From a virus, in the IMG/VR virus record IMGVR_UViG_3300020395_000133, positions 1 through 21,080 of that record: a stretch of DNA of 21,080 nt; one strand, written 5' to 3'. Shown piece after piece: positions 4,432 through 21,080 of the stretch; position 1 is the first letter of the stretch; the number at the start of each line of letters is the position of its first letter. Position numbers and translations under genes: made by a program. The notes under the pieces were generated by a model. It did not search any database. It was not told the DNA's origin and worked only from the letters and a program-made list of their open reading frames with translations.

Positions 4432-4459
4432 ATTATACACGATCCAAGAGGGTTGTCAG
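4432..4459 (-). promoter_or_regulatory. Sigma70-type promoter for the structured RNA
   Basis: On the minus strand, CTGACA (4459-4454, five of six matches to TTGACA) and a perfect TATAAT (4437-4432) are separated by 16 bp. The promoter overlaps the last codons of the upstream methyltransferase. The predicted start, 6-7 bases after the -10 box, falls at the first paired bases of the RNA. This is the best host-type promoter in the window. Confidence 0.7.
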
Positions 4460-5401
4460 TCCATTATGTACCACTTTGTCAGTTGGCACATGATATTCTC
4501 TCACTCTCTGCTCTATTAAATGACCATAATCCTCGTGTAATTCGCACCCTAAGTAATACCTACCTAATGATTTTGCTACCATTGCAGTAGTTCCAGATCC
4601 CATAAATGGGTCAATGATAGTATCATTTAGTGCTGAACCTGCTTTAATACATGGGATGATTAATTCAGGTGGGAAAGTAGCAAAATGAGCACCCTTATAT
4701 GGTCTCTTAGTTATACTCCATACACTACGTTTATTCTTCTTTGGATATGATTTAGTGAGACCAGTATGAGGTGATAAACCTGTACCCTCATTGTGATATT
4801 TGCCTTTAGTTCTATCTCTTGTACCCCAATCTTTCGCTGGTTCTTTAATAGCATCATTGTCATAATAATAGTTCTTACTCTTACTTAAGAGGAAGATATA
4901 TTCATGTGCTTTAGTACATCTATCTCTTACACTTTCAGGCATTGGATTAGGTTTATGCCATATAATATCTTGCCTTAAGTACCATCCATCTGCTCGTAAT
5001 GCAAATGCTAACATCCAAGGAATACCAATTAAATCTTTCTCTTTTAGTCCCTCTAATTTGTTAGCACGTTTGTTACTATTAGTAGGTAAATCTTGTCTAG
5101 TCTCACTAACACTTTGCTTAGGGTAATTAGCACCCTTACCAGGACGATAGTTGTAATAACTATCACCTATGTTTAACCATAGTGTTCCATCTTCAGTCAA
5201 TATATTTCTAACTTCTCTGAATACTTTCACCATCTCATTAACATATTCTTCTGGTGATTGTTCTAAACCTATTTGATTATCTTCTCCACCATAATCTCTT
5301 AGTCCGTAATATGGTGGACTTGTTACACACATACGAGCACTATTTGGTAGAAATGCTGATAATGTCTTGCGACAATCTCCAAATAATATTGTATCTTTCA
5401 T
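4433..5401 (-). CDS. Site-specific DNA methyltransferase (beta-class, N6A or N4C)
   Basis: This enzyme transfers a methyl group from S-adenosylmethionine to an exocyclic amino group of DNA. The catalytic motif TSPPYYG (residues 27-33) precedes the AdoMet-binding motif DPFMGSG (264-270), which is the beta-class order. The segment between (MPESVRDR...KAHEYIF at about 154-170) is typical of phage and bacterial orphan methyltransferases of this type. At 322 aa it is full length. No nuclease gene lies next to it, so I infer an orphan enzyme that protects phage DNA or regulates genes. Target base and site cannot be read from sequence. It overlaps the 31-aa membrane peptide gene by ATGA. Confidence 0.92.
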   Translation of the reverse strand: MKDTILFGDCRKTLSAFLPNSARMCVTSPPYYGLRDYGGEDNQIGLEQSPEEYVNEMVKVFREVRNILTEDGTLWLNIGDSYYNYRPGKGANYPKQSVSETRQDLPTNSNKRANKLEGLKEKDLIGIPWMLAFALRADGWYLRQDIIWHKPNPMPESVRDRCTKAHEYIFLLSKSKNYYYDNDAIKEPAKDWGTRDRTKGKYHNEGTGLSPHTGLTKSYPKKNKRSVWSITKRPYKGAHFATFPPELIIPCIKAGSALNDTIIDPFMGSGTTAMVAKSLGRYYLGCELHEDYGHLIEQRVREYHVPTDKVVHNGLTTLLDRV

Positions 5402-7894: not shown

Positions 7895-7983
7895 AATAGT
7901 CCTCGATAAGTTTGTTTTAACTTCTGAAATTGCTTCCGTTTGGTGTAACTTCCACGAATCTCATTGGTAGTATTATATATCAT
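7879..7983 (-). CDS. Putative 34-aa basic peptide
   Basis: The ATG overlaps the stop of the methyltransferase (ATGA), and the ORF ends 16 bases inside the next gene. The product begins MIYNTTNEIRGSYTKRKQFQ and ends YRGLLCRKH, strongly basic with an amphipathic pattern. The region also holds a TATATAAT box that could instead be a promoter for the 372-aa gene. The two readings are not exclusive. Support is the coupled junction and charged, non-random composition. Confidence 0.45.
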   Translation of the reverse strand: MIYNTTNEIRGSYTKRKQFQKLKQTYRGLLCRKH

Positions 7984-8768
7984 TTTAATATAGAAGTCAA
8001 CCCTCCATTTATCCTATTTTCAGCAAACTTAACATAATCTTCATCTATTTCATACCCTATGTAACTCCAACCTAAATTATTTGCTGCTAATCCAGTACTA
8101 CCTGTTCCCATGAAAGGATCAAGAACTACACCACAATCTATGCCTGTTAGTTTAATACAATCCTCTGCTAATTTAACTGGAAAAGTAGCAGGATGTTTAC
8201 CACGCAATTCTTTACTATTAATAGTCTCATATGGTATGAACCAAGTATTACCTTTGTCCCTTAAATTAGGTTTGTTCTCAATCGTATTATTACCACGAAT
8301 ATTTGCTTCATAATATTCATACTTAACACCAACAGATAGTCTATCTATTTCTACATTACCATCTTTGGTAAAGTGAAACAAATTCTCCCAAGTAGGACAC
8401 AAATAGCGTTTACTATTGATAGGTTTAAAATGTCCACTCGTCTTGTTATTTACATGAATAGACTTAACCCAAACTATATTATTTTGTAAATTATATGTAT
8501 TTTTAATTGCAAACATGACCTCTAACCCTATCGTAGGATCTACATTTGAGTATCCCATATTAACAAATAGGTGACCATTATCTTTCAGTACACGTTTACA
8601 TTCAACAAACACATCTTCTATCCATGAGATATACTTATCTCTTGGTTTTTTATCATTGTATTTGTTATACTTAATGTTTAAATTATAAGGTGGTGATGTA
8701 ACAACAGCATCAACAGATTGATCTGCTAATTGTTTCATACCATCAATACAATCATCCAAATAAATCAT
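7980..8768 (-). CDS. DNA methyltransferase, beta-class (second copy, unrelated context)
   Basis: This is an AdoMet-dependent amino-methyltransferase of DNA. The catalytic motif TSPPYN (24-29) comes before the AdoMet motif DPFMGTGS (217-224), the beta order. At 262 aa it is complete. The open frame extends to 8828, but the ATG at 8768 has GGAG 6 bases upstream and leaves a 17-base overlap with the preceding gene. The target could be N6-adenine or N4-cytosine. It is the immediate downstream partner of a protein with a possible nuclease motif (8752-9216), so a restriction-modification pair is conceivable. It differs clearly from the methyltransferase at 4433-5401 outside the motifs. Confidence 0.9.
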   Translation of the reverse strand: MIYLDDCIDGMKQLADQSVDAVVTSPPYNLNIKYNKYNDKKPRDKYISWIEDVFVECKRVLKDNGHLFVNMGYSNVDPTIGLEVMFAIKNTYNLQNNIVWVKSIHVNNKTSGHFKPINSKRYLCPTWENLFHFTKDGNVEIDRLSVGVKYEYYEANIRGNNTIENKPNLRDKGNTWFIPYETINSKELRGKHPATFPVKLAEDCIKLTGIDCGVVLDPFMGTGSTGLAANNLGWSYIGYEIDEDYVKFAENRINGGLTSILK

Positions 8769-9216
8769 CACGATCTCCGAATGGAATTGATCCGTTTGTA
8801 TATTGTGTAAGATCAGATCCTTTAACAAATCTAACTCTTACTTCAGGAAATGATACTACATCTGTAAAGATATAAATCATATCCATAGCATGTTCCCATA
8901 GTTTCTCTTCATCAACTGATCTACCTGCACCTAACATAACACTAGGACAGAATTTAGCACCATGTCTAGTAAAACATTTAGCATCATACAGTTGACCCTC
9001 TACCAAATGATTGATATGGTCATATCCTTTACCATCTACAAATTCAAGACCTTCAAACCAATCTTCTAATTGTAATTCTAAGAATCCTGATGCTCTCCTA
9101 CCATCTGTGAATAGTTTATAAACTCTCTCTTGAGATAGTGTACCAAATGTAGCATCACACTCGAAAGTATAAGTATGATTCAAGATCACATCTTGCTTAG
9201 TTGGTCGCAATTTCAT
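8752..9216 (-). CDS. Conserved hypothetical, possible PD-(D/E)xK-like nuclease (154 aa)
   Basis: The frame can begin at TTG 9234, but the ribosome-binding AGGA abuts that codon, so I use the ATG at 9216. The product starts MKLRPTKQDVILNHTYTFEC. The segment GYDHINHLVEGQLYDAKCF (about 64-82) places an Asp (66), a Glu (73) and a DAK triplet (78-80), a spacing reminiscent of PD-(D/E)xK nucleases. GxxFCPS and VRVRFVKGSD follow. The family resemblance is by eye only. It overlaps the methyltransferase that follows by 17 bases, the layout expected for a restriction-modification pair. It could equally be an unrelated conserved phage protein. Confidence 0.75.
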   Translation of the reverse strand: MKLRPTKQDVILNHTYTFECDATFGTLSQERVYKLFTDGRRASGFLELQLEDWFEGLEFVDGKGYDHINHLVEGQLYDAKCFTRHGAKFCPSVMLGAGRSVDEEKLWEHAMDMIYIFTDVVSFPEVRVRFVKGSDLTQYTNGSIPFGDRDDLFG

Positions 9217-9239: not shown

Positions 9240-9884
9240 TTATATCAGATCTAAGTCCTTTCCTACTGCACCATGTGACACATTACGTGCTGGCACGACA
9301 TCAAAGTTTGCACTAAATGTTACACGTTCAAAATCACTCTTATTAGGTGATACTAAATGAGGATAATGTGCAGGGAATATAATTATATCACCTTGTTGTA
9401 CTTTAGGTGTTATAGTTGCTGCTGTTGGTATATCAAACATATCATCTAATCCACATGCTTTATATGCTGCATGTTGATTATTATAGAATTTGAAGTTAGT
9501 ACATCCACCTTCTAATCTATAAAAATATACTGCTGCAAGATTACAATGCTGAACAGAATGACAATGATACTCTTGATAGTGTCCTCTTTGATAACGATTA
9601 ATCCATGCCTCTTGAGGAACTATTTCTATATCTCTCTTAGGTTTTAATTCTTCTACCAGTTCAGATAGACATGGTTTAATAAATTCTAACCACCTTTCCC
9701 AAGGTGCTGTATCATTAGTTGGTAAACTATATGATGTTAATAGTTCACCATTAATGTTATCAGGATTAATAAAGTTCTTTTCTAAGTCCATAAACTCAGA
9801 AAAACTACGTTCAATTTCCTGTTGGTTTTCTAAGGTAATTTTACCCTTATAATACCAACGAGGAGAAAACATTTCAACGGTCAT
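9240..9884 (-). CDS. 2OG/Fe(II)-dependent oxygenase (2OG-FeII_Oxy_5-like)
   Basis: Proteins of this fold couple 2-oxoglutarate decarboxylation to hydroxylation. This one has a likely metal-binding segment YHCHSVQHCN (His107, His109), a GDIIIFPAHYPH segment (distal His173 or His176) and Arg187 in ERVTF as probable 2OG ligand. HxH instead of HxD fits the 2OG-FeII_Oxy_5 group. It is separated from the main oxygenase block by about 1 kb of small genes. An AAGGA lies 11 bases before the ATG. Substrate unknown. Confidence 0.8.
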   Translation of the reverse strand: MTVEMFSPRWYYKGKITLENQQEIERSFSEFMDLEKNFINPDNINGELLTSYSLPTNDTAPWERWLEFIKPCLSELVEELKPKRDIEIVPQEAWINRYQRGHYQEYHCHSVQHCNLAAVYFYRLEGGCTNFKFYNNQHAAYKACGLDDMFDIPTAATITPKVQQGDIIIFPAHYPHLVSPNKSDFERVTFSANFDVVPARNVSHGAVGKDLDLI

Positions 9885-10077
9885 GTTTATAAAGATCCTT
9901 AAGGTGTAATTTGTCAGTTAGATCGTCTATTTCTGCCATCCTACGTTGATACTCTTCCATAGGAATAACATTGTCTCTAAAGTATTGTTTCTGTAATTGA
10001 CAGACATACATGATTAGAGCATCTTTTACGATCATTTTTTGATCCTTGTTTAATAGTTGAGAGTAAAGACCAATCAT
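9874..10077 (-). CDS. Hypothetical helical protein (67 aa)
   Basis: It starts MIGLYSQLLNKDQKMIVKDA and continues with LQKQYFRDNVIPMEEYQRRM, two or three helices with heptad-like spacing. It overlaps the oxygenase start by 11 bases, and its own ATG overlaps the upstream stop (ATGA). No family is recognised. Confidence 0.7.
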   Translation of the reverse strand: MIGLYSQLLNKDQKMIVKDALIMYVCQLQKQYFRDNVIPMEEYQRRMAEIDDLTDKLHLKDLYKHDR

Positions 10078-10268
10078 CTCCTCAACGAATGTGTATACTC
10101 TAGTATTTTATCACGTATTTCCATCATTTCATGGAAACACTTCTGATTATGAGCACATCCACGCAAAGCGGGATCTGCTTTATGGATTGATTCGATACAA
10201 ATATCAAGTCCTCGGTTCCATTTCTGGTCTTTGGACTCGTTATCTGCTATTGATCCTTGGTCTTTCAT
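10074..10268 (-). CDS. Hypothetical small protein (64 aa)
   Basis: It begins MKDQGSIADNESKDQKWNRG and contains ADPALRGCAHNQKCFHEM, with two Cys and two His in a short span (a possible but unproven metal site). It ends in a helix, ILEYTHSLRR. TAATG joins it to the gene before and ATGA to the gene after. No family is recognised. Confidence 0.7.
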   Translation of the reverse strand: MKDQGSIADNESKDQKWNRGLDICIESIHKADPALRGCAHNQKCFHEMMEIRDKILEYTHSLRR

Positions 10269-10360
10269 TAGTATGTTGCTGTGTACTCAATTTCTACTCC
10301 ATCAAATGAAGCGTCATCATACATCTGATCTTCATAATCTAACCCATCATCTTCAAACAT
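10268..10360 (-). CDS. Small acidic protein (30 aa), start uncertain
   Basis: The frame is open to 10522. I place the start at the ATG at 10360, just inside the end of the upstream gene, with GAGG 9 bases before it. The product begins MFEDDGLDYEDQMYDDASFD and ends EIEYTATY, very acidic. An alternative ATG at 10429 has GGAGG 6 bases upstream but would overlap the neighbouring gene out of frame by 77 bases. No family is recognised. Confidence 0.5.
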   Translation of the reverse strand: MFEDDGLDYEDQMYDDASFDGVEIEYTATY

Positions 10361-10544
10361 CACCGAATTCCTCGGTGTTGGTTGCTCTTTTTTTAGGGTG
10401 ATTATGTCCTTTGGGTTGATTGTAGTCATAAGATTCCTCCCATTTAGATGTGCGATTTGTTCCTTTTTGACGCTTGTCCCGTAATGATTTTCCTGGAGAA
10501 TAGTAACCTCGTTCGTTACCACCTCGGCGAAAAGTCTTACCCAT
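10353..10544 (-). CDS. Small Arg/Gly/Lys-rich phage protein (63 aa)
   Basis: The N-terminus MGKTFRRGGNERGYYSPGKS followed by LRDKRQK is a pattern I recall from small basic proteins of marine phages. The whole protein is polar, basic and probably unstructured, which suggests nucleic-acid binding (inference). It is the first gene after the hairpin and AT box at 10570-10621. Its 3' end overlaps the following acidic ORF. Confidence 0.7.
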   Translation of the reverse strand: MGKTFRRGGNERGYYSPGKSLRDKRQKGTNRTSKWEESYDYNQPKGHNHPKKRATNTEEFGDV

Positions 10545-10587
10545 TGATACTCTTCAGTATTACTGAACTACATCTGTATATATTAGC

Positions 10588-10621
10588 ATAGGGGACTCAT
10601 TTCTGTCAACGAATCCCCTAT
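10588..10621 (-). terminator. Inverted repeat, probable terminator
   Basis: A perfect 8-bp stem (ATAGGGGA at 10588-10595 with TCCCCTAT at 10614-10621) and an 18-base loop lie between the gene starting at 10544 and the one ending at 10628. No T-run follows on the minus strand; instead there is an AT-rich TAATATATAC box that may be the next promoter. It resembles the hairpin-plus-AT-box arrangement of modules A-D without sharing their sequence. Confidence 0.5.
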
Positions 10622-10627
10622 AGATCT

Positions 10628-10882
10628 TTAGTCTTTATTAAGGTATGACGGATCAATGATAGAATGTGTACTTGTAATAGGATCATACTCCTCATAAGAT
10701 TCATCATCATCTTCAATAGTCTCCTCATCTACTTTAACGATAGTTAAATCATCAAAATAGTATCCAACTCCTCTAAGGAAGTCTCCTGTTTTTTCTACAA
10801 CTTCTTGTAGGTATGCAGACTTAAACTCCTTAGTTGTTACCGTAGAGTCTTCATCTGTGCATGTTAGTGTAAAAGATGGCAT
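10628..10882 (-). CDS. Hypothetical acidic protein (84 aa)
   Basis: It begins MPSFTLTCTDEDSTVTTKEF. A short beta-strand N-terminus is followed by a helix (SAYLQEVVEKTGDFLRGVGY), and the rest is strongly acidic (VDEETIEDDDESYEEYD). The acidic tail is typical of small phage regulators and DNA mimics but proves nothing. It stands alone between a 43-base gap and the hairpin at 10588-10621. Its start is preceded by AGTAATTATC with no Shine-Dalgarno sequence. Confidence 0.7.
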   Translation of the reverse strand: MPSFTLTCTDEDSTVTTKEFKSAYLQEVVEKTGDFLRGVGYYFDDLTIVKVDEETIEDDDESYEEYDPITSTHSIIDPSYLNKD

Positions 10883-10925
10883 GATAATTACTGTGACCCA
10901 TGTAGTCTATCACAATTTTTAGGGA

Positions 10926-11546
10926 TTAGGACGGTTGTGTGCCACCTAGTATATTGTCATACTCCTTCTTCAATTCATCCTCCCAATTACCCTCTGGTAA
11001 TGATCTATTAATATCATTAATACACCACGACATTGGACCTCTACTTCTAACGTAATGTAAAAAACACTGTGCAAAATTCTCACCACTATACTTACCATTT
11101 CTCCAGTGTGGTGCTACACATCCCAGATATATCAGTGCATCTCCTTGATCTAATACTACATTAAACTCATTATTATTACGATAGTTTCTTATACCAAACT
11201 CCCACTCTTTATCTGATCCTAGATGTACAGTTAATGATACCTCACATGCAGGTCTATCTGTATGAGGATTTAAAAAAGCATTATGTTTATATAATCTCAT
11301 GTATGAATAAGTTGGAAATAATGATTCTCCAACTATATCTACCATGTTATGTAAGAGATAGAATAATAACTCTTGTGATGCTTTTGGTGACTGATAGTTA
11401 TAACAAGGTCCATGAAATTCATTGTCTAAGAAATGCAATCTAGTCTGACCAGTATCAACTAACTCACGATACAGACTATTTGCTAAGTCAACATGAACAA
11501 AGTTCTTAACTAATAAGAATCCATTATCTAATAACTGTGTGTTCAC
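10926..11546 (-). CDS. 2OG/Fe(II)-dependent oxygenase (206 aa)
   Basis: The iron site is visible as NPHTDRPACE (His95, Asp97) with the distal His147 in APHWRNGKYSGEN. The usual C-terminal 2OG-binding basic residue is less clear; the segment after the distal His reads FAQCFLHYVRSRG, a pattern I recall from a phage and SAR11 oxygenase group. The N-terminal 90 residues form the helical lead-in common to this fold. It is the last gene of the contiguous oxygenase block. ATGA overlaps the gene before it. Substrate unknown. Confidence 0.82.
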   Translation of the reverse strand: MNTQLLDNGFLLVKNFVHVDLANSLYRELVDTGQTRLHFLDNEFHGPCYNYQSPKASQELLFYLLHNMVDIVGESLFPTYSYMRLYKHNAFLNPHTDRPACEVSLTVHLGSDKEWEFGIRNYRNNNEFNVVLDQGDALIYLGCVAPHWRNGKYSGENFAQCFLHYVRSRGPMSWCINDINRSLPEGNWEDELKKEYDNILGGTQPS

Positions 11547-12196
11547 AACTCAATCGCTAAATTCAAAGGATCTTTTGATGTATCTCTATCTAACTTAGAG
11601 AACCAGAAATGATCCATTCCTTTCTGTGTTATTAAATCAAATGCAATAGTATATCTATCAGTATCTTCATATCTTAATGCTTTAACTGCATGAGGTAATG
11701 ATGATGGTGCAAGTGTTAATCTACCTTTCTTACTACCTATACCTGTCCATCCAACATAAGGTATATCATAATCAGTACCAATAAAATGATCTTGCATATT
11801 TAACACACCACTTAGAAATGCGTTCTCGTGCATTGCGTGTTGGTGTCTACCTATATTCATTCTTCGTTTAACTTTTATCTCTGGTTTCTGAGGATATACC
11901 CAACCTCTAACCCATATTCTTTCTTCTTTCTCTATGTGTAGAGAATTACAAAATGCTTCATAAGATGTTAGTATCATCTCTTGTAATTCTTTTACAGCAA
12001 ACCCTTCCCATTGAAATATATTATAATGTTCCCATCTATCATTATCAAATAATCCTTCTTCCTCATGTTTCTTAACTAAACCTAATAACTCATCAATTAA
12101 AACATCAGGTAATTCATCAACCCATAAAGATATATCAAATTCAGGTGCAAATGGATTATTACCTTTAGGTTGATTCCATCTATGTAAATGTGGCAT
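11543..12196 (-). CDS. 2OG/Fe(II) oxygenase-like (2OG-FeII_Oxy_5-like, 217 aa)
   Basis: The metal-binding segment is GRHQHAMHENAFLSGVLNM (His118, His120), followed by TLAPSSLPHAV (distal His169) and DRYTIAFDLIT (Arg181). The 'H.H......LSGV' pattern and 'R.(S/T)IAFD' end are hallmarks, by recall, of the 2OG-FeII_Oxy_5 group seen in T4-like phages. It shares its layout with the gene at 12887-13528, on the other side of the QueG-like gene. It overlaps that gene by 17 bases. Substrate unknown. Confidence 0.8.
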   Translation of the reverse strand: MPHLHRWNQPKGNNPFAPEFDISLWVDELPDVLIDELLGLVKKHEEEGLFDNDRWEHYNIFQWEGFAVKELQEMILTSYEAFCNSLHIEKEERIWVRGWVYPQKPEIKVKRRMNIGRHQHAMHENAFLSGVLNMQDHFIGTDYDIPYVGWTGIGSKKGRLTLAPSSLPHAVKALRYEDTDRYTIAFDLITQKGMDHFWFSKLDRDTSKDPLNLAIEL

Positions 12197-12890
12197 GAAT
12201 ACGTTCTCCGTAACGAGGGTTAATTTCGAGGATTCTTTTAGTCAACTCCTGTGAATAAGGGCAACTGTCTTGACATATCCTACAAATACTATCAAGATCT
12301 TTAAATGCTTCAGGAACATCTACAAAATTAGAACACTTCTCCCAATCAACAAGATCAAAGTTCATTGTACATCCCATAGGACATTTATATTCGCAAGGTG
12401 CATCACACCCAATACAATTACTATAGTGAGGTTCACCATCAATAACAATAGTATCATCAAATTTAGCATCAGTAAAGATTAGATCAATCTTATAATTCAT
12501 TCCAAATCTTTTATGAAATGCTAATGATGTTTTTGCTAATGTTGCTGCACCTGATCTAATAGCAAACTGTTTTCTATTTAATAGGTAATCATCATACCCA
12601 AAATTATAATCATATATTGTATTTAATCGTCTAATGATCTCTGGTAAGAAGTTATTCTTATAGTGGTAATCATATGCAACACGACTAAAAACATTCCATA
12701 CAATAACAGACTTACAAGTATTATCTAATTGGTAAGTCTGATTTAATGATTCTGGTTTACCTCTATTAAAATGATCTTGTGCTCTTTGTGTAACTAATTC
12801 AGGTGGTGGTGTAGTTACTGACAGATCATATATGAAAGGTATATCACCTATTACATTATCAATTACATCTCGAATATATTCGAGTTTCAT
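12180..12890 (-). CDS. QueG-like double [4Fe-4S] protein (divergent, 236 aa)
   Basis: Two ferredoxin-like Cys sets are clear: C159-x2-C162-x3-C166-x3-C170-P and C203-x2-C206-x3-C210-P, with C174 and C186 between them. Epoxyqueuosine reductase QueG has this arrangement after a cobalamin-binding domain. The part before the clusters (YDYHYKN at about 73-79 and the long SGAATLAKTSL segment) matches QueG only loosely. QueG proteins are usually about 350 aa with a C-terminal extension; this one lacks that extension. A B12- and Fe-S-dependent reductase is the best guess. It sits between oxygenases with overlaps at both ends. A 16-bp palindrome covers codons 3-8. Confidence 0.7.
   Translation of the reverse strand: MKLEYIRDVIDNVIGDIPFIYDLSVTTPPPELVTQRAQDHFNRGKPESLNQTYQLDNTCKSVIVWNVFSRVAYDYHYKNNFLPEIIRRLNTIYDYNFGYDDYLLNRKQFAIRSGAATLAKTSLAFHKRFGMNYKIDLIFTDAKFDDTIVIDGEPHYSNCIGCDAPCEYKCPMGCTMNFDLVDWEKCSNFVDVPEAFKDLDSICRICQDSCPYSQELTKRILEINPRYGERIHATFT
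12869..12884. repeat. Perfect 16-bp palindrome at the start of the QueG-like gene
   Basis: CTCGAATATATTCGAG reads the same on both strands and covers codons 3-8 of the QueG-like gene. It could form a cruciform or an RNA hairpin near the start codon, or be a protein-binding site. Confidence 0.6.
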
Positions 12891-13528
12891 AATTGAACCC
12901 AGTGTTCCTTTCTATCCTCGTAAATGTCCTCATTATATACTATCTCAGTAATAATGTCAAATGCTATTGATACTCTAAAATCATTACCATCATATGTGTC
13001 AGTATAATGTTCCAACCAATTAGGAAATAGTGTTACCTTACCTTTATCATTTGAGGATGAATATAACTTTTGATTATATGGATTTACATAATGAGTACTA
13101 GTTTCTATATCATCTAATTGTATATGTCCACCAAGATATGTGTATTCACTTGTCCAATGTTGATGTTGTTTTATCTTCTCACCTTTTCTCATAACATTTG
13201 CCCAACATTGAACATATATTTTATCTTCCCAATCATATCCAAGAGTTGTTATAAAATTATCATGTGATGATCTTATTACTTCTTTTAAAAAATATGCTTC
13301 TTTCCATTTAATTACATTATAACAATTAGATCTAGAAGTCATACTATTACATCCTAATCCAGTATTCCAATCACTTGTATATGGATTAGTGTTTATAATC
13401 TCTTGTTCTTTTGATAATATTATATCCTTAATATTCCTTACATCTACATTATTCTCATAGATGTTAAAATTAAATATAGGTGCAAACCTTGTCTTAGGTT
13501 CTTCATTTTCAAAGTTAATAATTTGCAT
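12887..13528 (-). CDS. 2OG/Fe(II) oxygenase-like (2OG-FeII_Oxy_5-like, 213 aa)
   Basis: The iron-site segment is IKQHQHWTSEYTYLGGHIQL (His122, His124). A distal His174 lies in LFPNWLEHYTD, and Arg185 in FRVSIAFDIIT is the probable 2OG ligand. It is the closest relative by eye of the gene at 11543-12196. Its N-terminal 60 residues differ, which suggests a different substrate. Its stop overlaps the ATG of the QueG-like gene (ATGA). Confidence 0.8.
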   Translation of the reverse strand: MQIINFENEEPKTRFAPIFNFNIYENNVDVRNIKDIILSKEQEIINTNPYTSDWNTGLGCNSMTSRSNCYNVIKWKEAYFLKEVIRSSHDNFITTLGYDWEDKIYVQCWANVMRKGEKIKQHQHWTSEYTYLGGHIQLDDIETSTHYVNPYNQKLYSSSNDKGKVTLFPNWLEHYTDTYDGNDFRVSIAFDIITEIVYNEDIYEDRKEHWVQL

Positions 13529-13530
13529 AA

Positions 13531-14139
13531 TTACATTGCCAAGAATTGACTCATTGAGTATCTACCCATACCAGGATTAAAGTCTTTCATAACTATGGGT
13601 GTGACTTCATGCCACATAATTGATGGAAATACCACCAGCGAATTATTTAGACAAGGTATTCTAAGTCTATGTTCTAATATTAAATCACCACCAGTATATC
13701 CTTTTGGTTCTTCATAGAAGAAAGTAATTGCTGTTATAACACAATCATCTACATGTGATTTATAGTAATCACCATTAGTATAATAATGTAGTTTAGTATT
13801 ATCTGAATTAGATCTTCTTACATATCTAAACATAGAGTGATAACACTCTAATAAATCAGTAGTCTCTTTCTTAAACAACTTACGATTTAGTTTTAATATG
13901 TCAGACTCAGATCGATCCTTATATACAACATCTAAGTGCATACCTTTACCAGATTTTAATACTACACCATTTGCTATTGCAGTACCAGGTCCATCTGGAT
14001 CTGTTGGATCTTTAAATCTATCAATAGATGATAAAAATCTCAACTCATCAAATATTGAACTCAATTCTATATCTGAGTAAAAATTAGGTATTAATATAAC
14101 TGGTAACCCAGAAGGTGTATCAAAAAATATATTTGACAT
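13531..14139 (-). CDS. 2OG/Fe(II) oxygenase, prolyl-hydroxylase-like (202 aa)
   Basis: A full triad is visible: YYKSHVDDC (His129, Asp131), FPSIMWHEVT (His177) and GMGRYSMSQF (Arg193). The segment GYTGGDLILE is the 'GGxL' strand typical of prolyl-4-hydroxylase-like proteins (2OG-FeII_Oxy_3 group). All catalytic residues are present, so activity is likely. It overlaps the unrecognised gene upstream by 20 bases. Substrate unknown: protein, glycan and small molecule are all possible. Confidence 0.85.
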   Translation of the reverse strand: MSNIFFDTPSGLPVILIPNFYSDIELSSIFDELRFLSSIDRFKDPTDPDGPGTAIANGVVLKSGKGMHLDVVYKDRSESDILKLNRKLFKKETTDLLECYHSMFRYVRRSNSDNTKLHYYTNGDYYKSHVDDCVITAITFFYEEPKGYTGGDLILEHRLRIPCLNNSLVVFPSIMWHEVTPIVMKDFNPGMGRYSMSQFLAM

Positions 14140-14482
14140 TATCTATTTCCATAGTATTAGACCATCTAAAGACGTATGCTCTAAAGAACCTCATCTTCTT
14201 TGGTCTTAAATCAAATTTAAATTTACCTTCACGATTAACAACTTCAAGACAGTAATGATATAAATTACCTGTCTCTTGACATACACATGATACAAAATCA
14301 TTGTGTGCCTCTATCTCACAATCAAATATTTCACTAGCATGTTCTAATTCACATACAATCCCAAACTCATCTTTCAATATATTCTGAATAGATACTGCCA
14401 TATCTGTCAATGATACCTTTTCAATATCAGTATCAAAGAACTGTTCAAATGTATATAATTCTCTGGGATTAATTAATTGCAT
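14120..14482 (-). CDS. Unrecognised 120-aa protein inside the oxygenase block
   Basis: It starts MQLINPRELYTFEQFFDTDI and has four Cys (in VCELE, FDCE, SCVCQE) and several His between residues about 40 and 80, then a basic, aromatic C-terminus (RPKKMRFFRAYVFRW). No HxD...H pattern is present, so I do not count it as an oxygenase. It is joined by TAATG to the gene before and overlaps the gene after, so it belongs to the same transcript. It may be an accessory or substrate protein, by position only. Confidence 0.7.
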   Translation of the reverse strand: MQLINPRELYTFEQFFDTDIEKVSLTDMAVSIQNILKDEFGIVCELEHASEIFDCEIEAHNDFVSCVCQETGNLYHYCLEVVNREGKFKFDLRPKKMRFFRAYVFRWSNTMEIDNVKYIF

Positions 14483-14958
14483 TAGAAATAATTAATATTA
14501 ATATTTGCTCTAAATTGTTGGTCAGTGCAATTAGTACTATTATGAGGATCTTGAGGATTAAAGAATACTATTCTATTTGCTCTTGATTCCACTTTCATAC
14601 CTTTAATGCTAGTATGTCCATCACATGTATTCAGAGATAATACTGCTGCTTTATGATCGAAATCATAATCAGTATGTGGTGTATGATGAACTAAAGTATC
14701 TGTTCTAGGATATAGATTTACCTTTACTCTAATTAATGATCTTGCATTAATAACAAACTTCAATGCTTCAGCAATCCAATACTTATTACTACATGGTCTC
14801 TCTTGGTCGTAAAGCATATGGCAGAAGTAAGCATCCTTTTCTTCACCCTCACCAGATATATCTGGTATACAAAACCAAGGAGTTGAATCCTTATCAAAAA
14901 TATCATCTTGTATTTTCTTAAATAATTCCTTATCTAAGAAGTCATTTACACATTCCAT
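14482..14958 (-). CDS. Short 2OG/Fe(II) oxygenase (158 aa)
   Basis: The complete triad fits in the C-terminal half: HTPHTDYDFDHKAAVLSLN (His95, Asp97), FFNPQDPHNST (His139) and QQFRANININYF (Arg150). It is short for the fold but the core is whole. HxD and Arg suggest an active enzyme. GGAG lies 8 bases before the ATG, within the end of the upstream gene. No specific subfamily is recognised. Confidence 0.8.
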   Translation of the reverse strand: MECVNDFLDKELFKKIQDDIFDKDSTPWFCIPDISGEGEEKDAYFCHMLYDQERPCSNKYWIAEALKFVINARSLIRVKVNLYPRTDTLVHHTPHTDYDFDHKAAVLSLNTCDGHTSIKGMKVESRANRIVFFNPQDPHNSTNCTDQQFRANININYF

Positions 14959-14960
14959 TG

Positions 14961-15479
14961 TTAAATCTCCAGAAATTCATCATTGAGTGGCATAGATTTA
15001 TCTTTACCATACCACATTGATATAGTATATCTATCCCGTTTCAAAACATTACTTACCCCATGTCTAAATTCCATTCCATCAAAATATACTGTCCTACCTG
15101 ATAATGGTTGAACATCTACACCTTCAACTATAGTATGCCCACCAATATAATCATCATTGATATATGTAATTGATGCACCAGTTGTTGTAGGTCTTGCCCT
15201 ATCGTGATGAAATCCCTTACATGCACCACAAGGATACTTAACTATCTCTACATTCTGCAGTACAGAAAATCTATTGTCATGGTATACTCTCCTCTTAACA
15301 TCTTTTACTAATTCATATATCTTTTTATAAGTATCACATTCTGTCTTAACTCCAATACCACCTCTATCCATACTAAGAACTCTTGTTTCATCCCAGACAT
15401 ATGTTTTAAGAAGATTATCCTTAAAGAACTGAATAATCTCTTCTTCACATGGTATTACAACTTGTGAGATATAAATCAT
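14961..15479 (-). CDS. 2OG/Fe(II) oxygenase, prolyl-hydroxylase-like (172 aa)
   Basis: The triad is GFHHDRARP (His91, Asp93), VYFDGMEFRHGVS (His140) and KRDRYTISMWY (Arg150). The middle reads TGASITYINDDYIGGHTIVE, the expected double-strand and 'GG' turn. The open frame extends to 15503, but I choose the ATG at 15479 because it overlaps the upstream stop (ATGA) and GGAG lies before it. Active by residue content. Substrate unknown. Confidence 0.83.
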   Translation of the reverse strand: MIYISQVVIPCEEEIIQFFKDNLLKTYVWDETRVLSMDRGGIGVKTECDTYKKIYELVKDVKRRVYHDNRFSVLQNVEIVKYPCGACKGFHHDRARPTTTGASITYINDDYIGGHTIVEGVDVQPLSGRTVYFDGMEFRHGVSNVLKRDRYTISMWYGKDKSMPLNDEFLEI

Positions 15480-16093
15480 CTGAATGGATCTCCTAAATTC
15501 CAACTAACAAGAGAATACCTTGTTCCTTTAGTAACAGGTAGTACTCTATGATATACAAATGATGGGAATACAACTAATGATCCTTGTGTATTCAATTCTT
15601 TAGCAATACATTGATCTTTCCTATTATAATGGAATTCAAGATCACCACCTTCAAACTCATTAGGATCATTTAATAGTAATGTAGATGATAGTTTCCTATA
15701 CTTACCCTTCATATTTTCATGTTCATCATCACCGTACACATAATGATGTTGGTCTGGATGCCATTCATAAAACTGTCCTTCATTATAAATGGTAAACTGC
15801 ATATTCTCAGTATAATCCCACTGAAAATTCCAACCTGCTGACTCATTTGCTTGTTGAATGAGTGGTTTAATTAAATTATGAACCCAAGGTTCATCTATCC
15901 ATGAAATATGTGAATTTCTAACCTTTAAGAGATCATTCATCTCCTCTTCAGTATAATTGTCTGTTCCCTTAGTATCTGCTCTATTAACTTCACCTTGTCT
16001 AATATTAAGATCCTTTCCTATATCAATAATACGATCACATATCTCAGGTTTTATAATGCCCTGAAAATACCAATAAGTGTAATTTAAGTTCAT
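15476..16093 (-). CDS. 2OG/Fe(II) oxygenase, PKHD-type hydroxylase (205 aa)
   Basis: This is the most canonical member of the array: YEWHPDQHHYVY (His112, Asp114), LNDPNEFEGGDLEFHY, GSLVVFPSFVYHRV (His182) and GTRYSLVSWNLG (Arg192). The pattern matches PKHD/PiuC-like hydroxylases and the prolyl-4-hydroxylase-like genes often found in cyanomyoviruses. The ribosome-binding GGAGG forms the last codons of the upstream gene. An active enzyme is very likely. The natural substrate in phage is unknown. Confidence 0.9.
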   Translation of the reverse strand: MNLNYTYWYFQGIIKPEICDRIIDIGKDLNIRQGEVNRADTKGTDNYTEEEMNDLLKVRNSHISWIDEPWVHNLIKPLIQQANESAGWNFQWDYTENMQFTIYNEGQFYEWHPDQHHYVYGDDEHENMKGKYRKLSSTLLLNDPNEFEGGDLEFHYNRKDQCIAKELNTQGSLVVFPSFVYHRVLPVTKGTRYSLVSWNLGDPFR

Positions 16094-16705
16094 TTAACCT
16101 CCATTAAACTCTGTGTAATCAAATCCTGGTACCTTATAAGTATACCACCCTGTAGTTATATACTTAACTTGAGTTGGTGATGGTATACCTCTATGTGTAT
16201 GTGTCCAATCACAGGGCCAAATGACAGTTAATCCTTTTTGTGGTTGTATCTTTAGACCTTGATGATACCATTCAGTTTCACCACCATCAGTTACATCATT
16301 TAGATATGTCATAAATGTTAGATGTCTAGTTCCTACTAAATTTTTATAAGTTGATCTTTCAGTATGCCAACCAAAAAATCCTTCATCAGGTTTATACTTT
16401 TGTATATTAAAATTGGTATTTAAACCCCAAGAACTGTGATTAGTAGAACTCCAAGGATAACGTTCGGTATAATTATCGCATACTTTTCCTAACCTGTCAA
16501 GATATATTTGTATCCTCTCATCCTTAACCCTTGGTATAACTGCTACATCAGTTGAAACTTTATACTCTTCATTAATTCCTTGCCCAACTTGTCCTGGTCC
16601 TTGATCTGGACTGTCATTAAAGTACGAGATCAATCCATCACAAACGTTATCTTCAATATACCATCCAGCAATAAAACTATTAGATGGTATTATATGCTCT
16701 TTCAT
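16094..16705 (-). CDS. 2OG/Fe(II) oxygenase, prolyl-4-hydroxylase alpha-like (203 aa)
   Basis: The metal site is FFGWHTERSTYK (His114, Glu116), so it uses HxE rather than HxD. The distal His is 169 or 171 in DWTHTHRG. Lys181 (PTQVKYITTGW) occupies the place of the usual Arg, as in collagen-type prolyl 4-hydroxylases. TYLNDVTDGGETEW is the typical 'GGxT' strand. HxE is tolerated in some family members. It overlaps the following degenerate paralogue by ATGA. Substrate unknown. Confidence 0.87.
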   Translation of the reverse strand: MKEHIIPSNSFIAGWYIEDNVCDGLISYFNDSPDQGPGQVGQGINEEYKVSTDVAVIPRVKDERIQIYLDRLGKVCDNYTERYPWSSTNHSSWGLNTNFNIQKYKPDEGFFGWHTERSTYKNLVGTRHLTFMTYLNDVTDGGETEWYHQGLKIQPQKGLTVIWPCDWTHTHRGIPSPTQVKYITTGWYTYKVPGFDYTEFNGG

Positions 16706-17214
16706 GCTAACGTAAAATGTATGAGAATATTTTCATCACCTAATTGTGATGTCATACCATATTTAACATCACTAGGGAATAATATAATTGATCCAGTAAA
16801 CAGTTTAACCTCTTGAAAATTATCACCTTGGAAAAATTTAATAGAATCATCCATACATGCTTTGACACAAAAAATCCCAGATACAACAGATCTAGGAAAA
16901 CTTCTAGGAAATGTATAATCTCCTTTCTTACTTATTTCAGTCCAAATATTTTTAAATGTAATATCTTCTTTATATCCAACTTGTCTTGCAAATGCTTGTG
17001 AATGGTCAAATATTAATGGTCTTAAACCATCAAGTTCAACCACTTCAAATAAATTCTTTCTAATACCGCATGTAGAATCTACATTCAGAATATCAGTACG
17101 AATAGTTCCTACCTTCTCAAGTGCTTGCTTGATATTTCTTTCGTAGTCTGGTAGTTTTTCTAGTAGTAAATTCGGTTCAAAGTAGATTGCTTTCGCAAAC
17201 CATGATGTAATCAT
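16702..17214 (-). CDS. Degenerate 2OG-oxygenase-like protein (170 aa)
   Basis: The framework of the 2OG-FeII_Oxy_5 group is clear: IWTEISKKGDYTFPRSFPRS, VVSGIFCVKA and SIILFPSDVKYGM. Where relatives have His-x-His-Pro, this one has PRSFPRS. Where the distal His is expected there is VKYG, and the C-terminal Arg is replaced in ENILIHFTLA. All iron ligands therefore appear lost while the reading frame is intact, so it may be a structural or regulatory pseudo-enzyme. It opens the oxygenase block directly after the virion gene at 17230, with no Shine-Dalgarno sequence seen. Confidence 0.75.
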   Translation of the reverse strand: MITSWFAKAIYFEPNLLLEKLPDYERNIKQALEKVGTIRTDILNVDSTCGIRKNLFEVVELDGLRPLIFDHSQAFARQVGYKEDITFKNIWTEISKKGDYTFPRSFPRSVVSGIFCVKACMDDSIKFFQGDNFQEVKLFTGSIILFPSDVKYGMTSQLGDENILIHFTLA

Positions 17215-17229
17215 AATACATTAGGGGGT

Positions 17230-17796
17230 TCATGCTTCCCAAGTTTTAGAGGAAGAGTTGTACTGATATACTGCTGGTTTTACAACTTGAGCAGTTTTAG
17301 AGACATAAGTTTTTGTCTCATTAGTCCACTCCCATGTGGCAGGAGTCATCTTAGAGTTATCACTATAGTCGGAAGTGTCCGTATAGTCAAGGGGTCCACC
17401 ATCATTTGTTGTAGTTTGATTTGCCTGTGTTATGGTATCCCAATGACAGGTATCCTCATTCAAGACTTGATTATTAGGATTAATAGGTGGTGCAATAAAA
17501 GCATCTCTCATATAATCATACTTACCACCAATAGAAGCATAATTCTTTCTTAGACATGCTTTCTGATCCCACACAAGGGATCCATCAACTTCTTTTCTAT
17601 GCCTACCTTTATAAGCATTATATGATGTTTGTCTCCAATCATATAATGCAGCAGTGTCAGGGAATATTTTCTGAAGGAAATCAATACCAATGTATTCCTT
17701 CTCTACTCCTGCTGCTGTAGATGTATCACTATCAGCAACAGCAACAACATCTACGACTGTGCCAGTTCTTTTCTCGATTTTTGCGAAATGTGCCAT
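17230..17796 (-). CDS. Conserved cyanophage virion-associated protein (188 aa)
   Basis: It starts MAHFAKIEKRTGTVVDVVAV and contains WRQTSYNAYKGRHRKEVDG and RKNYASIGGKYDYMRDAFIA followed by PPINPN. By recall this matches a small protein encoded near tail fibres in many T4-like marine phages ('MAHFAKI...', '...YAxxGxxYD...FI.P'). The C-terminal half is Thr/Asn/Ser-rich and ends in two WxWTNETKTYV-type repeats, the last being YQYNSSSKTWEA. A tail-associated structural role is probable. It lies 5 bases after the glycine-rich gene and is probably co-transcribed. Confidence 0.8.
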   Translation of the reverse strand: MAHFAKIEKRTGTVVDVVAVADSDTSTAAGVEKEYIGIDFLQKIFPDTAALYDWRQTSYNAYKGRHRKEVDGSLVWDQKACLRKNYASIGGKYDYMRDAFIAPPINPNNQVLNEDTCHWDTITQANQTTTNDGGPLDYTDTSDYSDNSKMTPATWEWTNETKTYVSKTAQVVKPAVYQYNSSSKTWEA

Positions 17797-17801
17797 AGTT
17801 T

Positions 17802-18851
17802 TTACTGATACTTATACTTAACAATTACAATACCCTTACCACCATTACCGCCTTTTGGTTCTGGATATTGACGAGGATCTTGGTCAGCAGCACCGCCACC
17901 GCCTCCACCGAGACCGTCAGTACCTGCATAACCACTTTCAGTAGGAGACAACGCACCATTACCGCCACCACCTGATCCACCATTAGGGTTGTGAGGACCA
18001 CCTGGATAATTAGCACCACCGCCACCACCTGCATAAGTTACCGCAGAACCGCTAATTGAGTTTGCAGTTCCATTTCCTCCATTTGCAGGTCTGGAGTTTG
18101 GTCGTGTATATCCATCTTCTCCTGCTTGTGAGTTACCACCTCCACCACCAGAAGTTCCGTTCTGTGAAGATGCACCTCTACCACCAGGATACCCTTGACC
18201 AGGTACTCCTGTTCCTCTAGGTTGGTTATATCCGTCACCATCAGTTCCAGATCCACCACCAGATCCACCAGGTTGTCCTGGTTTATCCTGTTGACCTCCA
18301 CCACCACCGCCAGTAGCAGTAACAGCAGATCCAAAAGTACTATTTCCACCAGGTTGTCCAGCAGAGTTACCAGTTCCTCCAGTTCCTCCACCACCAACAC
18401 TTACAGGGTATGATGTAGCATTAACAGTATAATTATATCCACCAGCAGCAAGCATACCACCAGCACCACCACCTCCACCAGATCCAAAGTTGTTGAAGTC
18501 ACCAGAAGCGAAACCGCCTCCACCTCCTCCACCAGCAACGACTAGGTAATCAACTTTACCATTTGCTTCATCACCTGCACCAGTGACTGCAAATGTTGCA
18601 GTATTATTAAAGGTATGGATTTTATAATTTCCACTCGTAGACTCAGTTCCACCTGACGCTTGAATAAATGCCTCAGATGATCCAATAGCAGATTTCCATT
18701 GAGTTCCATCCCAAACATCAACTGATCCATCAGTTGAGTTATAAATCATTTGTCCCGCAGTAGGCGATAAAGCATCCCGTTGTGTCTTTGTATAAGACGG
18801 GAGATTTAGCGTACTTGTGACATTAAGCGTTCCAGCATTTACTGTAGACAT
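17802..18851 (-). CDS. Glycine-rich tail adhesin (349 aa)
   Basis: Residues 1-60 form a phage-fibre lead-in (TLNLPSYTKTQRDALSPTAG, MIYNSTDGSVDVWDGTQWK). Residues about 105-335 are a glycine-rich domain of GGGGGGG, GGAGG and PGGxG motifs, introduced by VDYLVVAGGGGGGG and ended by GKGIVIVKYKYQ. This is the glycine-rich domain of phage receptor-binding adhesins, thought to form a polyglycine-II-type lattice with recognition loops. It likely contacts the host surface. It is preceded by a perfect TATAAATA late promoter at 18893-18886. The repetitive sequence may recombine. Confidence 0.88.
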   Translation of the reverse strand: MSTVNAGTLNVTSTLNLPSYTKTQRDALSPTAGQMIYNSTDGSVDVWDGTQWKSAIGSSEAFIQASGGTESTSGNYKIHTFNNTATFAVTGAGDEANGKVDYLVVAGGGGGGGFASGDFNNFGSGGGGGAGGMLAAGGYNYTVNATSYPVSVGGGGTGGTGNSAGQPGGNSTFGSAVTATGGGGGGQQDKPGQPGGSGGGSGTDGDGYNQPRGTGVPGQGYPGGRGASSQNGTSGGGGGNSQAGEDGYTRPNSRPANGGNGTANSISGSAVTYAGGGGGANYPGGPHNPNGGSGGGGNGALSPTESGYAGTDGLGGGGGGAADQDPRQYPEPKGGNGGKGIVIVKYKYQ

Positions 18852-18885: not shown

Positions 18886-18893
18886 TATTTATA
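18886..18893 (-). promoter_or_regulatory. Late promoter TATAAATA
   Basis: TATAAATA on the minus strand is an exact match to the T4 late box. It lies 35 bases before the ATG of the glycine-rich adhesin. No later box of this type was seen down to about 10000, so it is the best candidate for driving the adhesin, the 188-aa protein and the oxygenase block. Confidence 0.7.
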
Positions 18894-19510: not shown

Positions 19511-20344
19511 TTATATTACTGCTACCCAATACCTTAAAAGAGAAGTTCCACCATAATTATCATTTCTAATTCTATCCGATCCACTACATGCACCACCATT
19601 ATTATCTTCTATGTGTTCTGTGCATCCAGTACCTTCACACCAACATACAACAGCACCACCACTAGCATCCCAAGATGATGAGTTAAATGTATAACTTATA
19701 TTAGATGGATAACCAGATGAAGTTGTATTAATAAATGAAGTCTGCCATAATGTAGCAGATTGTGCTTCAGTTGCCCATTGTCCTAAATCAGTATCTTCAT
19801 AACAAACCCAGTTGACATCATTCAACCACCCTCTACCAGATACATTTTGATCTATCCACCAACCACTTGTACTATTAGTTCCAAAGGTTGTTGTCTCAAT
19901 AGAATCTAAGTATCCATATTGATTGTAACTACCATATGAATATGAGTTGTGTCTACTTACCAATGCCCAAGCATTAGTAGAACCTATACTACCACCAGCA
20001 AACGAATCAAACTTAACATATACTTGTTGGACTCCTAATGAACCCGTATCAATATAATATATCCCGTCACTAGTTATACCAGCATCTCTAAGAGCTTTAG
20101 GAGAAGAAGCAGGGTTAGCAGCAGTTCCTGGTACTGCTGCAGTTCCTCCAGCAGTGCTTACCCAATTATTAGCAGAAGCATCAGCATTTGGTGTGTAAAC
20201 ATACAAACTACCAGCAGTGTTAGTTGATTTAACATAACAAATATCACCCACTGTTCCTTGAGGTAAGTTCTCAGCAGGATGTAATGGTAAATTAATACCT
20301 ACGGTTGAACTTGCGGTTTCTATAGTTAATTTACCAGATGCCAT
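19511..20344 (-). CDS. Tail-fibre protein with fibrinogen-like domain (277 aa)
   Basis: Residues about 80-120 read ASSPKALRDAGITSDGIYYI followed by QVYVKFDSFAGG and NAWALVSRH. This matches the start of fibrinogen-related (FReD) domains ('SCxEL...G..SGVY.I..' then '..YCD....GGW.L..R'). The C-terminal part has GAVVCWCEGTGCTEHIEDN and further Cys pairs. The N-terminal 78 residues are a typical fibre attachment segment. FReD-like domains bind surface glycans in other systems; here a receptor-binding role is inferred. Preceded by a late promoter at 20376-20369. Confidence 0.8.
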   Translation of the reverse strand: MASGKLTIETASSTVGINLPLHPAENLPQGTVGDICYVKSTNTAGSLYVYTPNADASANNWVSTAGGTAAVPGTAANPASSPKALRDAGITSDGIYYIDTGSLGVQQVYVKFDSFAGGSIGSTNAWALVSRHNSYSYGSYNQYGYLDSIETTTFGTNSTSGWWIDQNVSGRGWLNDVNWVCYEDTDLGQWATEAQSATLWQTSFINTTSSGYPSNISYTFNSSSWDASGGAVVCWCEGTGCTEHIEDNNGGACSGSDRIRNDNYGGTSLLRYWVAVI

Positions 20345-20368: not shown

Positions 20369-20376
20369 TATTTATA
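20369..20376 (-). promoter_or_regulatory. Late promoter TATAAATA
   Basis: An exact TATAAATA on the minus strand lies between the LamG-like gene and the fibre gene, about 25 bases before the fibre ATG at 20344. A GGAG is seen further down the leader. Confidence 0.65.
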
Positions 20377-21080
20377 CTCCGAAACGAGTTCTCGTCTTAG
20401 TATAATGTTCTAATACTTTTGCATCACTCCACACTTCTTCAAACAAGAAAAGTTGAGCAATATCACCCTCATAGTAAATACTGTTTCTACTACCATTATT
20501 ACTTGTTGCTTCAGAACCATCTCCTATAAATCCCCAACGTCTTGAACCATTTCCAAAGTATGAGAAACTATAACTATGGGTTCCATCTAAAACACCATCA
20601 AGATAAAATCTTATGTTGTTACTACTACTAGCATTATTAACAGTACAAACACCAAAATGCCAACTACCATCATTTGCAGGTGTGTTACTTACAATATCAT
20701 AACAACAAGTGCTGTTAGAACTACCAGCAAATTGTAGTTTGCCATGCTGACCAATGTTCCAACCTATAACTTCAGATCTATCCCAGTCATACCATGACCA
20801 GTTATCAAAGTCATAACCTCCACCTGAGTTTGGTGATCCATATGAAGTTCTAAACCAACAACCTTGTGTAAATTGATATAACCGACCATTATTATTAGGA
20901 CCATGTGATCCACTACTACCAAAATTTAAGTCTCTTATCCAACCATACTGGTTAGATCCATTAAAGTTCCAATATCCAATAGATCCATCACCACCACTTA
21001 CTGCTGAAGTAAAGGTAGGACTATTAACCATTTCACAATTAGCATTACTTAAATTAGGATGAGCTTTCTTAGATAACCAT
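20372..21080 (-). CDS. LamG/concanavalin-like tail protein, 5' end outside window
   Basis: The frame stays open to the window edge beyond the first ATG at 21031, reading WLSKKAHPNLSNANCEMVNS. The visible part is therefore the C-terminal section of a longer protein. The domain pattern is typical of LamG-like phage proteins: MVNSPTFTSAVSGGDGSIGY, WNFNGSNQYGW, DGSWHFGVCTVNN, NIRFYLDGVLDG and the closing DIAQLFLFEEVWSDAKVLEH. Such beta-sandwich domains bind carbohydrates and serve in host recognition. A start at 21031 is possible but less likely because the frame upstream continues the same domain. It carries many Asn/Ser/Gly/Trp residues. Confidence 0.85.
   Translation of the reverse strand, partial: WLSKKAHPNLSNANCEMVNSPTFTSAVSGGDGSIGYWNFNGSNQYGWIRDLNFGSSGSHGPNNNGRLYQFTQGCWFRTSYGSPNSGGGYDFDNWSWYDWDRSEVIGWNIGQHGKLQFAGSSNSTCCYDIVSNTPANDGSWHFGVCTVNNASSSNNIRFYLDGVLDGTHSYSFSYFGNGSRRWGFIGDGSEATSNNGSRNSIYYEGDIAQLFLFEEVWSDAKVLEHYTKTRTRFGV

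Follow-up and report, generated by a model that had tools for sequence, protein, structure and literature searches.

The 21,080-base contig IMGVR_UViG_3300020395_000133, analysed over its whole length and called the window here, is a fragment of a cyanomyovirus, with the Synechococcus myoviruses S-SM1 and S-RSM4 as its nearest isolates (S-SM1 matches 73% of the region at 69% DNA identity). It carries a block of 11 genes (10926-17214), nine of which resemble 2-oxoglutarate (2OG)/Fe(II) oxygenases, behind the genes for a glycine-rich, adhesin-like protein (GLY) and a further protein, X188. All genes of interest lie on the minus strand and are read from right to left in the following order: two adhesin-like genes (20372-21031 and 19511-20344), a gene for a protein of 126 residues, GLY, X188, the block (17214-10926), four small open reading frames, and the separate oxygenase gene A0. 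Within the block, neighbouring genes overlap by 1-28 nucleotides or are separated by at most 2 nucleotides; the GLY-X188-A10 stretch adds gaps of 5 and 15 nucleotides. The features are given below in the direction of reading, with E-values for profile matches and, for the firm oxygenases, the metal triad followed by the downstream Arg or Lys.

18886-18893, minus strand: T4-type late promoter motif TATAAATA, 42 nucleotides upstream of GLY
17802-18851, minus strand: GLY, glycine-rich adhesin-like protein of 349 residues, the proposed substrate; PF21722 Gly_rich_2, 1.3e-17
17230-17796, minus strand: X188, whose N-terminal part of about 120 residues is a widespread phage protein; phrog_7759, 4e-29
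16702-17214, minus strand: A10, HxH-type 2OG oxygenase homologue without metal ligands in this clade; phrog_81, 3.4e-12
16094-16705, minus strand: A9, 2OG/Fe(II) oxygenase, HxE with Lys; PF13640, 6e-13; H114/E116, H169, K181
15476-16093, minus strand: A8, 2OG/Fe(II) oxygenase, HxD, prolyl-hydroxylase/YbiX-like; PF13640, 1.6e-16; H112/D114, H182, R192
14961-15503, minus strand: A7, 2OG/Fe(II) oxygenase, HxD; phrog_2297, 1e-43, and phrog_61, 6.6e-13; H99/D101, H148, R158
14482-14958, minus strand: A6, 2OG/Fe(II) oxygenase, HxD; phrog_274, 2e-37; H95/D97, H139, R150
14120-14482, minus strand: S, small beta-rich protein of 120 residues
13531-14139, minus strand: A5, 2OG/Fe(II) oxygenase, HxD; PF13640, 2.9e-8; H129/D131, H177, R193
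12887-13528, minus strand: A4, 2OG/Fe(II) oxygenase, HxH; PF13759, 3.6e-11; H122/H124, H174, R185
12180-12890, minus strand: FeS, compact class III cobalamin-enzyme-like protein of 236 residues with two [4Fe-4S] sites, not an oxygenase
11543-12196, minus strand: A2, 2OG/Fe(II) oxygenase, HxH, related to A4; phrog_81, 2e-11, and PF13759, 9e-5 (below the cut-off); H118/H120, H169, R181
10926-11546, minus strand: A1, probable 2OG oxygenase with an invariant HxD...H pattern; phrog_2954, 2.6e-49
9240-9884, minus strand: A0, 2OG/Fe(II) oxygenase, HxH, separate from the block; PF13759, 2.8e-13; H107/H109, H176, R187

A preliminary description of this sequence had counted ten oxygenase-like genes, nine in an almost gap-free block and a tenth apart, most of them with intact ligands and all falling into at least three groups. 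The genes, their coordinates and the near absence of gaps are correct, and profile searches with every protein gave matches to PF13759, PF13640, phrog_61 or phrog_81, directly or via phrog_274, for all but A1. By Pfam and PHROGs eight of the ten are firm members of the superfamily, seven of them in the block (A2 and A4-A9), whereas A1 is only probable and A10 has no ligands. In the homologues of A0, A2 and A4-A9 (7-36 per gene), the metal triad, i.e. HxH, HxD or HxE plus the distal His, and the downstream Arg or Lys are at least 95% conserved; the four ligands of A9 are kept across 30 homologues, and its HxE motif is thus no sequencing error. The tenth gene, A0, is a genuine 2OG oxygenase but not part of the array, since four small open reading frames intervene and a counterpart occupies the same slot in phages that lack the block, and two genes inside the block, FeS and S, do not encode oxygenases. 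The division into three groups is roughly right: HxH (A0, A2, A4 and the relatives of A10), HxD (A1 and A5-A8) and HxE/Lys (A9). A2 and A4 are related to each other (hhalign probability 100), and A8 and A5 match the PKHD-type (YbiX)/prolyl-hydroxylase-like group, though below the curated cut-offs (for A8, 2.8e-15 with the PKHD-type NCBIfam model). As had been proposed, the genes are too divergent for a recent tandem duplication, which is ruled out by an identity of at most 27% between any two members. A6 matches PF13640 at 0.04 only, and it was placed in the 2OG superfamily because other members of phrog_274 also match phrog_61 or phrog_81; no endonuclease profile in Pfam matched this protein, and its label as DNA endonuclease V (denV) is not supported. 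The 'DNA endonuclease' label of A7 in PHROGs and GenBank is likewise unsupported, as its profile and motif are those of a 2OG oxygenase. Such endonuclease labels on A6- and A7-type genes (SSM1_053 and SSM1_054 of S-SM1; PHROGs 274 and 2297) have spread across cyanophage records.

The array is conserved and not unique to this contig: dozens of IMG/VR contigs and the two isolates share the order GLY-X188-(A10)-A9-A8-A7-A6-S-A5-A4-FeS-A2-A1, and separate scans with GLY and with A7 returned this order without exception. All complete loci contain 10-11 genes that are inherited together in strict order; A10, A1 and A6 differ in presence or copy number between loci. When only GLY was used as the query, X188 and the oxygenases followed it in 39/39 orthologues with enough downstream sequence, and wherever a cassette was found without GLY, the contig ended before GLY could appear. 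Every gene of the cassette is under purifying selection (ratio of nonsynonymous to synonymous substitution rates, dN/dS, 0.08-0.39), which rules out that the array is decaying or junk DNA. In S-SM1 (SSM1_051-061) and S-RSM4 (SRSM4_132-142), both sequenced in 2009-2010, the same genes stand in identical order and GLY and X188 adjoin them, as SSM1_049 and SSM1_050 in the case of S-SM1, which has no A10 and two copies of A1; the cassette genes are annotated as scattered 2OG oxygenases, 'DNA endonuclease V', 'ferrochelatase' and hypothetical proteins, and we did not find a description of them as a cassette in the literature. New here is the linkage to GLY; for the fixed cassette, this linkage and the FeS protein we did not find a literature description. 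The cassette occupies two genome positions, the slot between tail-fibre and helicase genes in S-SM1 and a site beside g13-g16 in S-RSM4, and in both cases it lies directly behind tail-fibre genes.

The distribution of promoter motifs fits a single late unit that would extend from GLY to A1. The coding strand of the window has just two copies of TATAAATA: the one at 18893 lies a short distance upstream of GLY, and the one at 20376 likewise precedes the adhesin-like gene at 19511-20344. The motif lies within 300 nucleotides upstream of GLY in 20 of 25 testable loci, and it is depleted inside the cassette, with four occurrences in 195 kb of cassette as compared to 16.6 expected from base composition. 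For cyanomyoviruses, NATAAATA has been reported as the late promoter (PMC2984593). These positions suggest that the genes are co-transcribed.

The FeS protein matches epoxyqueuosine reductase (QueG) in a single-sequence search (3e-4) and in a profile comparison with the QueG structure 5d6s (6.4e-7). The alignment retains all eight Cys of QueG that bind the two [4Fe-4S] clusters (8/8), and D100, Y101 and D130 of QueG (numbering of catalytic residues from PMC4646009) correspond to D74, Y75 and D100 in the window protein, which are invariant in 28/28 aligned sequences, while the position of H102 of QueG is variable in the family. FeS has the two-[4Fe-4S] ferredoxin cysteine pattern of the class III cobalamin enzymes, i.e. 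QueG and the reductive dehalogenase RdhA, and is shorter (236 as compared to about 380 residues): The C-terminal HEAT-repeat domain of QueG is absent, and the protein ends soon after the last cluster. Binding of cobalamin and an N-terminal domain for it are putative. An AlphaFold model gave QueG, RdhA and the human B12 protein MMACHC as the top solved matches in Foldseek; since the mean predicted local distance difference test score of the model is low (54.5), these fold matches serve only as agreement with the sequence result. Relatives of FeS were found in 51 IMG/VR loci, most with the same cassette in the same order; the counterparts in S-SM1 and S-RSM4 are 70% and 68% identical, and one scan of 84,980 cellular genomes confirmed no cellular relative. 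Members of the family with 43-50% identity (L046, 9983-10720; L052, 9971-10702; and relatives) stand alone among replication and recombination genes. A role of FeS as a dehalogenase was rejected, as no halogenase lies beside it in the cassette loci examined.

Two members of the array depart from the common pattern. A10 has lost the HxH motif and the distal His in the window and in two close relatives (L009 and L010), whereas HxH is kept in the other 17/20 aligned members, and 19/20 match PF13759. Since its dN/dS remains at 0.25-0.31 in spite of the loss of the ligands, i.e. purifying selection persists, A10 looks like a retained pseudoenzyme. In A1, the pattern H95xD97...H147 is invariant among homologues, but no 2OG model matched significantly (the best among A1 relatives was PhyH at 0.056), and the protein is for this reason graded as a probable 2OG oxygenase only. 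When A1 was compared with the other oxygenases profile against profile, no signal emerged, and a sequence search of solved structures gave no convincing match. No ferrochelatase match was found in Pfam for A1; the ferrochelatase label, carried by PHROGs 2954 and 3531, is thus without Pfam support, and phrog_3531 apparently comprises two domains, the second half of the protein matching 2OG oxygenases. For S, the model is confident and consists of one helix and long beta strands; a fold search with this model found no solved relative, and a sequence search of solved structures no convincing match. The C-terminal extension of X188 occurs together with the cassette. GLY, with a mean pairwise identity of 0.76 among orthologues, also matches phrog_2295 and tail-fibre PHROGs. 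Of its Pro residues 11/18 are invariant as compared to 25% of the Ser residues, which is suggestive but too weak, and we do not use it as support.

The preliminary description had called a run of this length unusual, which was overstated. Isolates sequenced in 2009-2010 already carry this array, islands of a comparable kind are frequent among cyanomyoviruses, and published counts of such genes stand at 10 for S-CREM1 (PMC9964418) and 24 for S-SCSM1 (PMC9602691). Arrays of this kind are in fact routine, but we found no close relative in which the function of the array is known. Counting with two PHROG models alone gave 7-12 oxygenase loci per isolate, and together with the literature cyanomyoviruses carry 7-24 2OG genes; on a 199-kb contig of a T4-like phage (L052), about 16 2OG loci, mostly HxH, are dispersed over the genome. 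In the available parts of their descriptions, S-SCSM1 and S-CREM1 resemble this phage group in having many divergent PF13640/PF13759 genes, which are presented there as auxiliary metabolic genes and are linked neither to an adhesin gene nor to a B12/Fe-S-like protein (PMC9602691, PMC9964418). Comparable slots are filled differently in other isolates: Syn9 and S-RIM44 carry two halogenases and P-RSM6 and S-WAM1 carry halogenases as well, in all four phages flanked directly by tail-fibre/adhesin genes on one side and by a run of 2OG genes on the other, and in S-SSM5 and S-TIM4 a carbamoyltransferase and 2OG oxygenases follow the tail-fibre/adhesin genes. The islands of Syn9, S-RIM44, P-RSM6 and S-WAM1 are thus of the same slot type (adhesin or fibre, redox tailoring enzymes, runs of 2OG oxygenases), whereas 'tryptophan halogenases' replace FeS and the oxygenase families differ. 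The characterised phage halogenase VirX1 comes from the cyanophage Syn10 (PMC8407142), and the placement of the halogenases is a possible clue to the natural role of such enzymes.

What could such a cassette be for? Our tentative first choice is a late operon for enzymes that modify, by hydroxylation or in other ways, the receptor-binding protein encoded next to them or another part of the tail. This reading is favoured because diverse, co-inherited and apparently late oxygenases are locked to one adhesin-like gene. The region 18893-10926 would be one late transcription unit for GLY, X188, about eight oxygenases, the ligand-less homologue, S and FeS. Late in infection, while tail parts are made, each oxygenase would act on different residues of GLY, by hydroxylation or further oxidation, with X188 or a tail fibre as possible alternative targets; FeS might reduce an oxidised intermediate by cobalamin chemistry or pass electrons, and A10 and S may act as non-catalytic partners. 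The outcome would be a chemically decorated tail tip, the receptor-binding surface of which is set in part by enzymes. A dedicated modification pathway acting on a virion protein, a tail glycan, a DNA base or a host metabolite had been suggested at the outset. The idea of such a pathway is strengthened by the colinearity in every locus, by the purifying selection on every gene and by the second redox protein, whereas for the substrate it is the linkage to the adhesin-like gene (39/39) and the shared late promoter motif that make a virion protein the best-supported candidate among these.

Several observations count against tailoring of GLY. We infer the substrate and its modification as well as the biological purpose, and the location of GLY in the virion is putative. 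The loci are related by descent, and the 39 cases are therefore not 39 independent events; moreover, GLY and the cassette could be linked because they move together or use one late promoter, and not because GLY is the substrate. The FeS family is also present in other T4-like marine phages, in replication regions and without the cassette; therefore FeS need not work only with these oxygenases, and the role of the family is not confined to the cassette. Finally, in experimental evolution of S-TIM4 a mutated 2OG gene, ORF23, is listed among the non-particle proteins (PMC6224464); ORF23 lies outside the oxygenase array of that phage.

There are two serious rivals. It is conceivable, if rather doubtful, that the cassette serves to build or modify not a protein but a small molecule, a lipid or a glycan of host or phage origin, and that the tail gene is a mere neighbour. 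Indeed, oxygenases combined with halogenases, carbamoyltransferases and a B12/Fe-S reductase-like protein resemble the tailoring sets of natural products, and the isolate with 24 oxygenases also has many genes for cell-wall modification (PMC9602691). However, neither the cassette nor its immediate surroundings showed a scaffold-building enzyme (nonribosomal peptide synthetase, polyketide synthase or glycosyltransferase), and the 39/39 linkage to an adhesin-like gene and the position behind a late promoter motif also speak against this reading. It seems unlikely that the oxygenases have several independent targets, each modifying a different tail, baseplate or host protein, so that the array would be a late-expressed store in a hypervariable region: The presence of 7-16 oxygenases per genome, many of them outside arrays, the low identity among the members, and the variable presence or copy number of A10, A1 and A6 would all suit this idea, but the strict order and the joint inheritance of 10-11 genes in every complete locus do not.

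Two older proposals account poorly for the linkage, the late motif and FeS. Modification or repair of nucleic acid by the oxygenases, i.e. AlkB-like repair or base hydroxylation, has been put forward for the 2OG genes of Syn9 (PMC2984593, PMC3037559), and it gains some appeal from the fact that QueG acts on a tRNA base and from two genes for N4/N6 DNA methyltransferases in the window (4433-5401 and 7980-8828, less than 4 kb apart). We regard it as improbable, since no AlkB or TET/JBP model matched the oxygenases, their best matches being PF13640/PF13759 and the PKHD type, since FeS lacks the C-terminal repeat domain of QueG that is thought to bind tRNA, and since the genes lie in a late position next to tail genes. 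That the enzymes simply consume 2-oxoglutarate and thereby modulate NtcA and nitrogen signalling of the host, as put forward by Sullivan et al. 2010 (PMC3037559), is very improbable, because this would require neither a fixed series of divergent enzymes nor a selected ligand-less member nor an Fe-S protein beside an adhesin, and early or middle expression would be expected instead of expression alongside late genes.

It is tempting to extend the idea of tailoring of GLY or of another tail part, and possible though doubtful, to a general and exchangeable post-translational tailoring of the receptor-binding proteins of cyanomyoviruses, in which 2OG islands together with halogenases, a carbamoyltransferase or a compact cobalamin-[4Fe-4S] enzyme are transcribed late with the adhesin, and which would also provide a natural role for the halogenases. 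Chemistry would then shape the surface of the tail tip in addition to its sequence. Few class III cobalamin enzymes are known, and a compact phage protein related to QueG and RdhA would represent a further family among them. The abundant 2OG oxygenases and halogenases of cyanophages have been classed among the auxiliary metabolic genes, and no substrate is known for them; the strict link to one late adhesin-like gene, GLY, offers a concrete, testable target. If tail adhesins are indeed enzymatically decorated, host range would depend on the modification genes as well as on the sequence of the adhesin.

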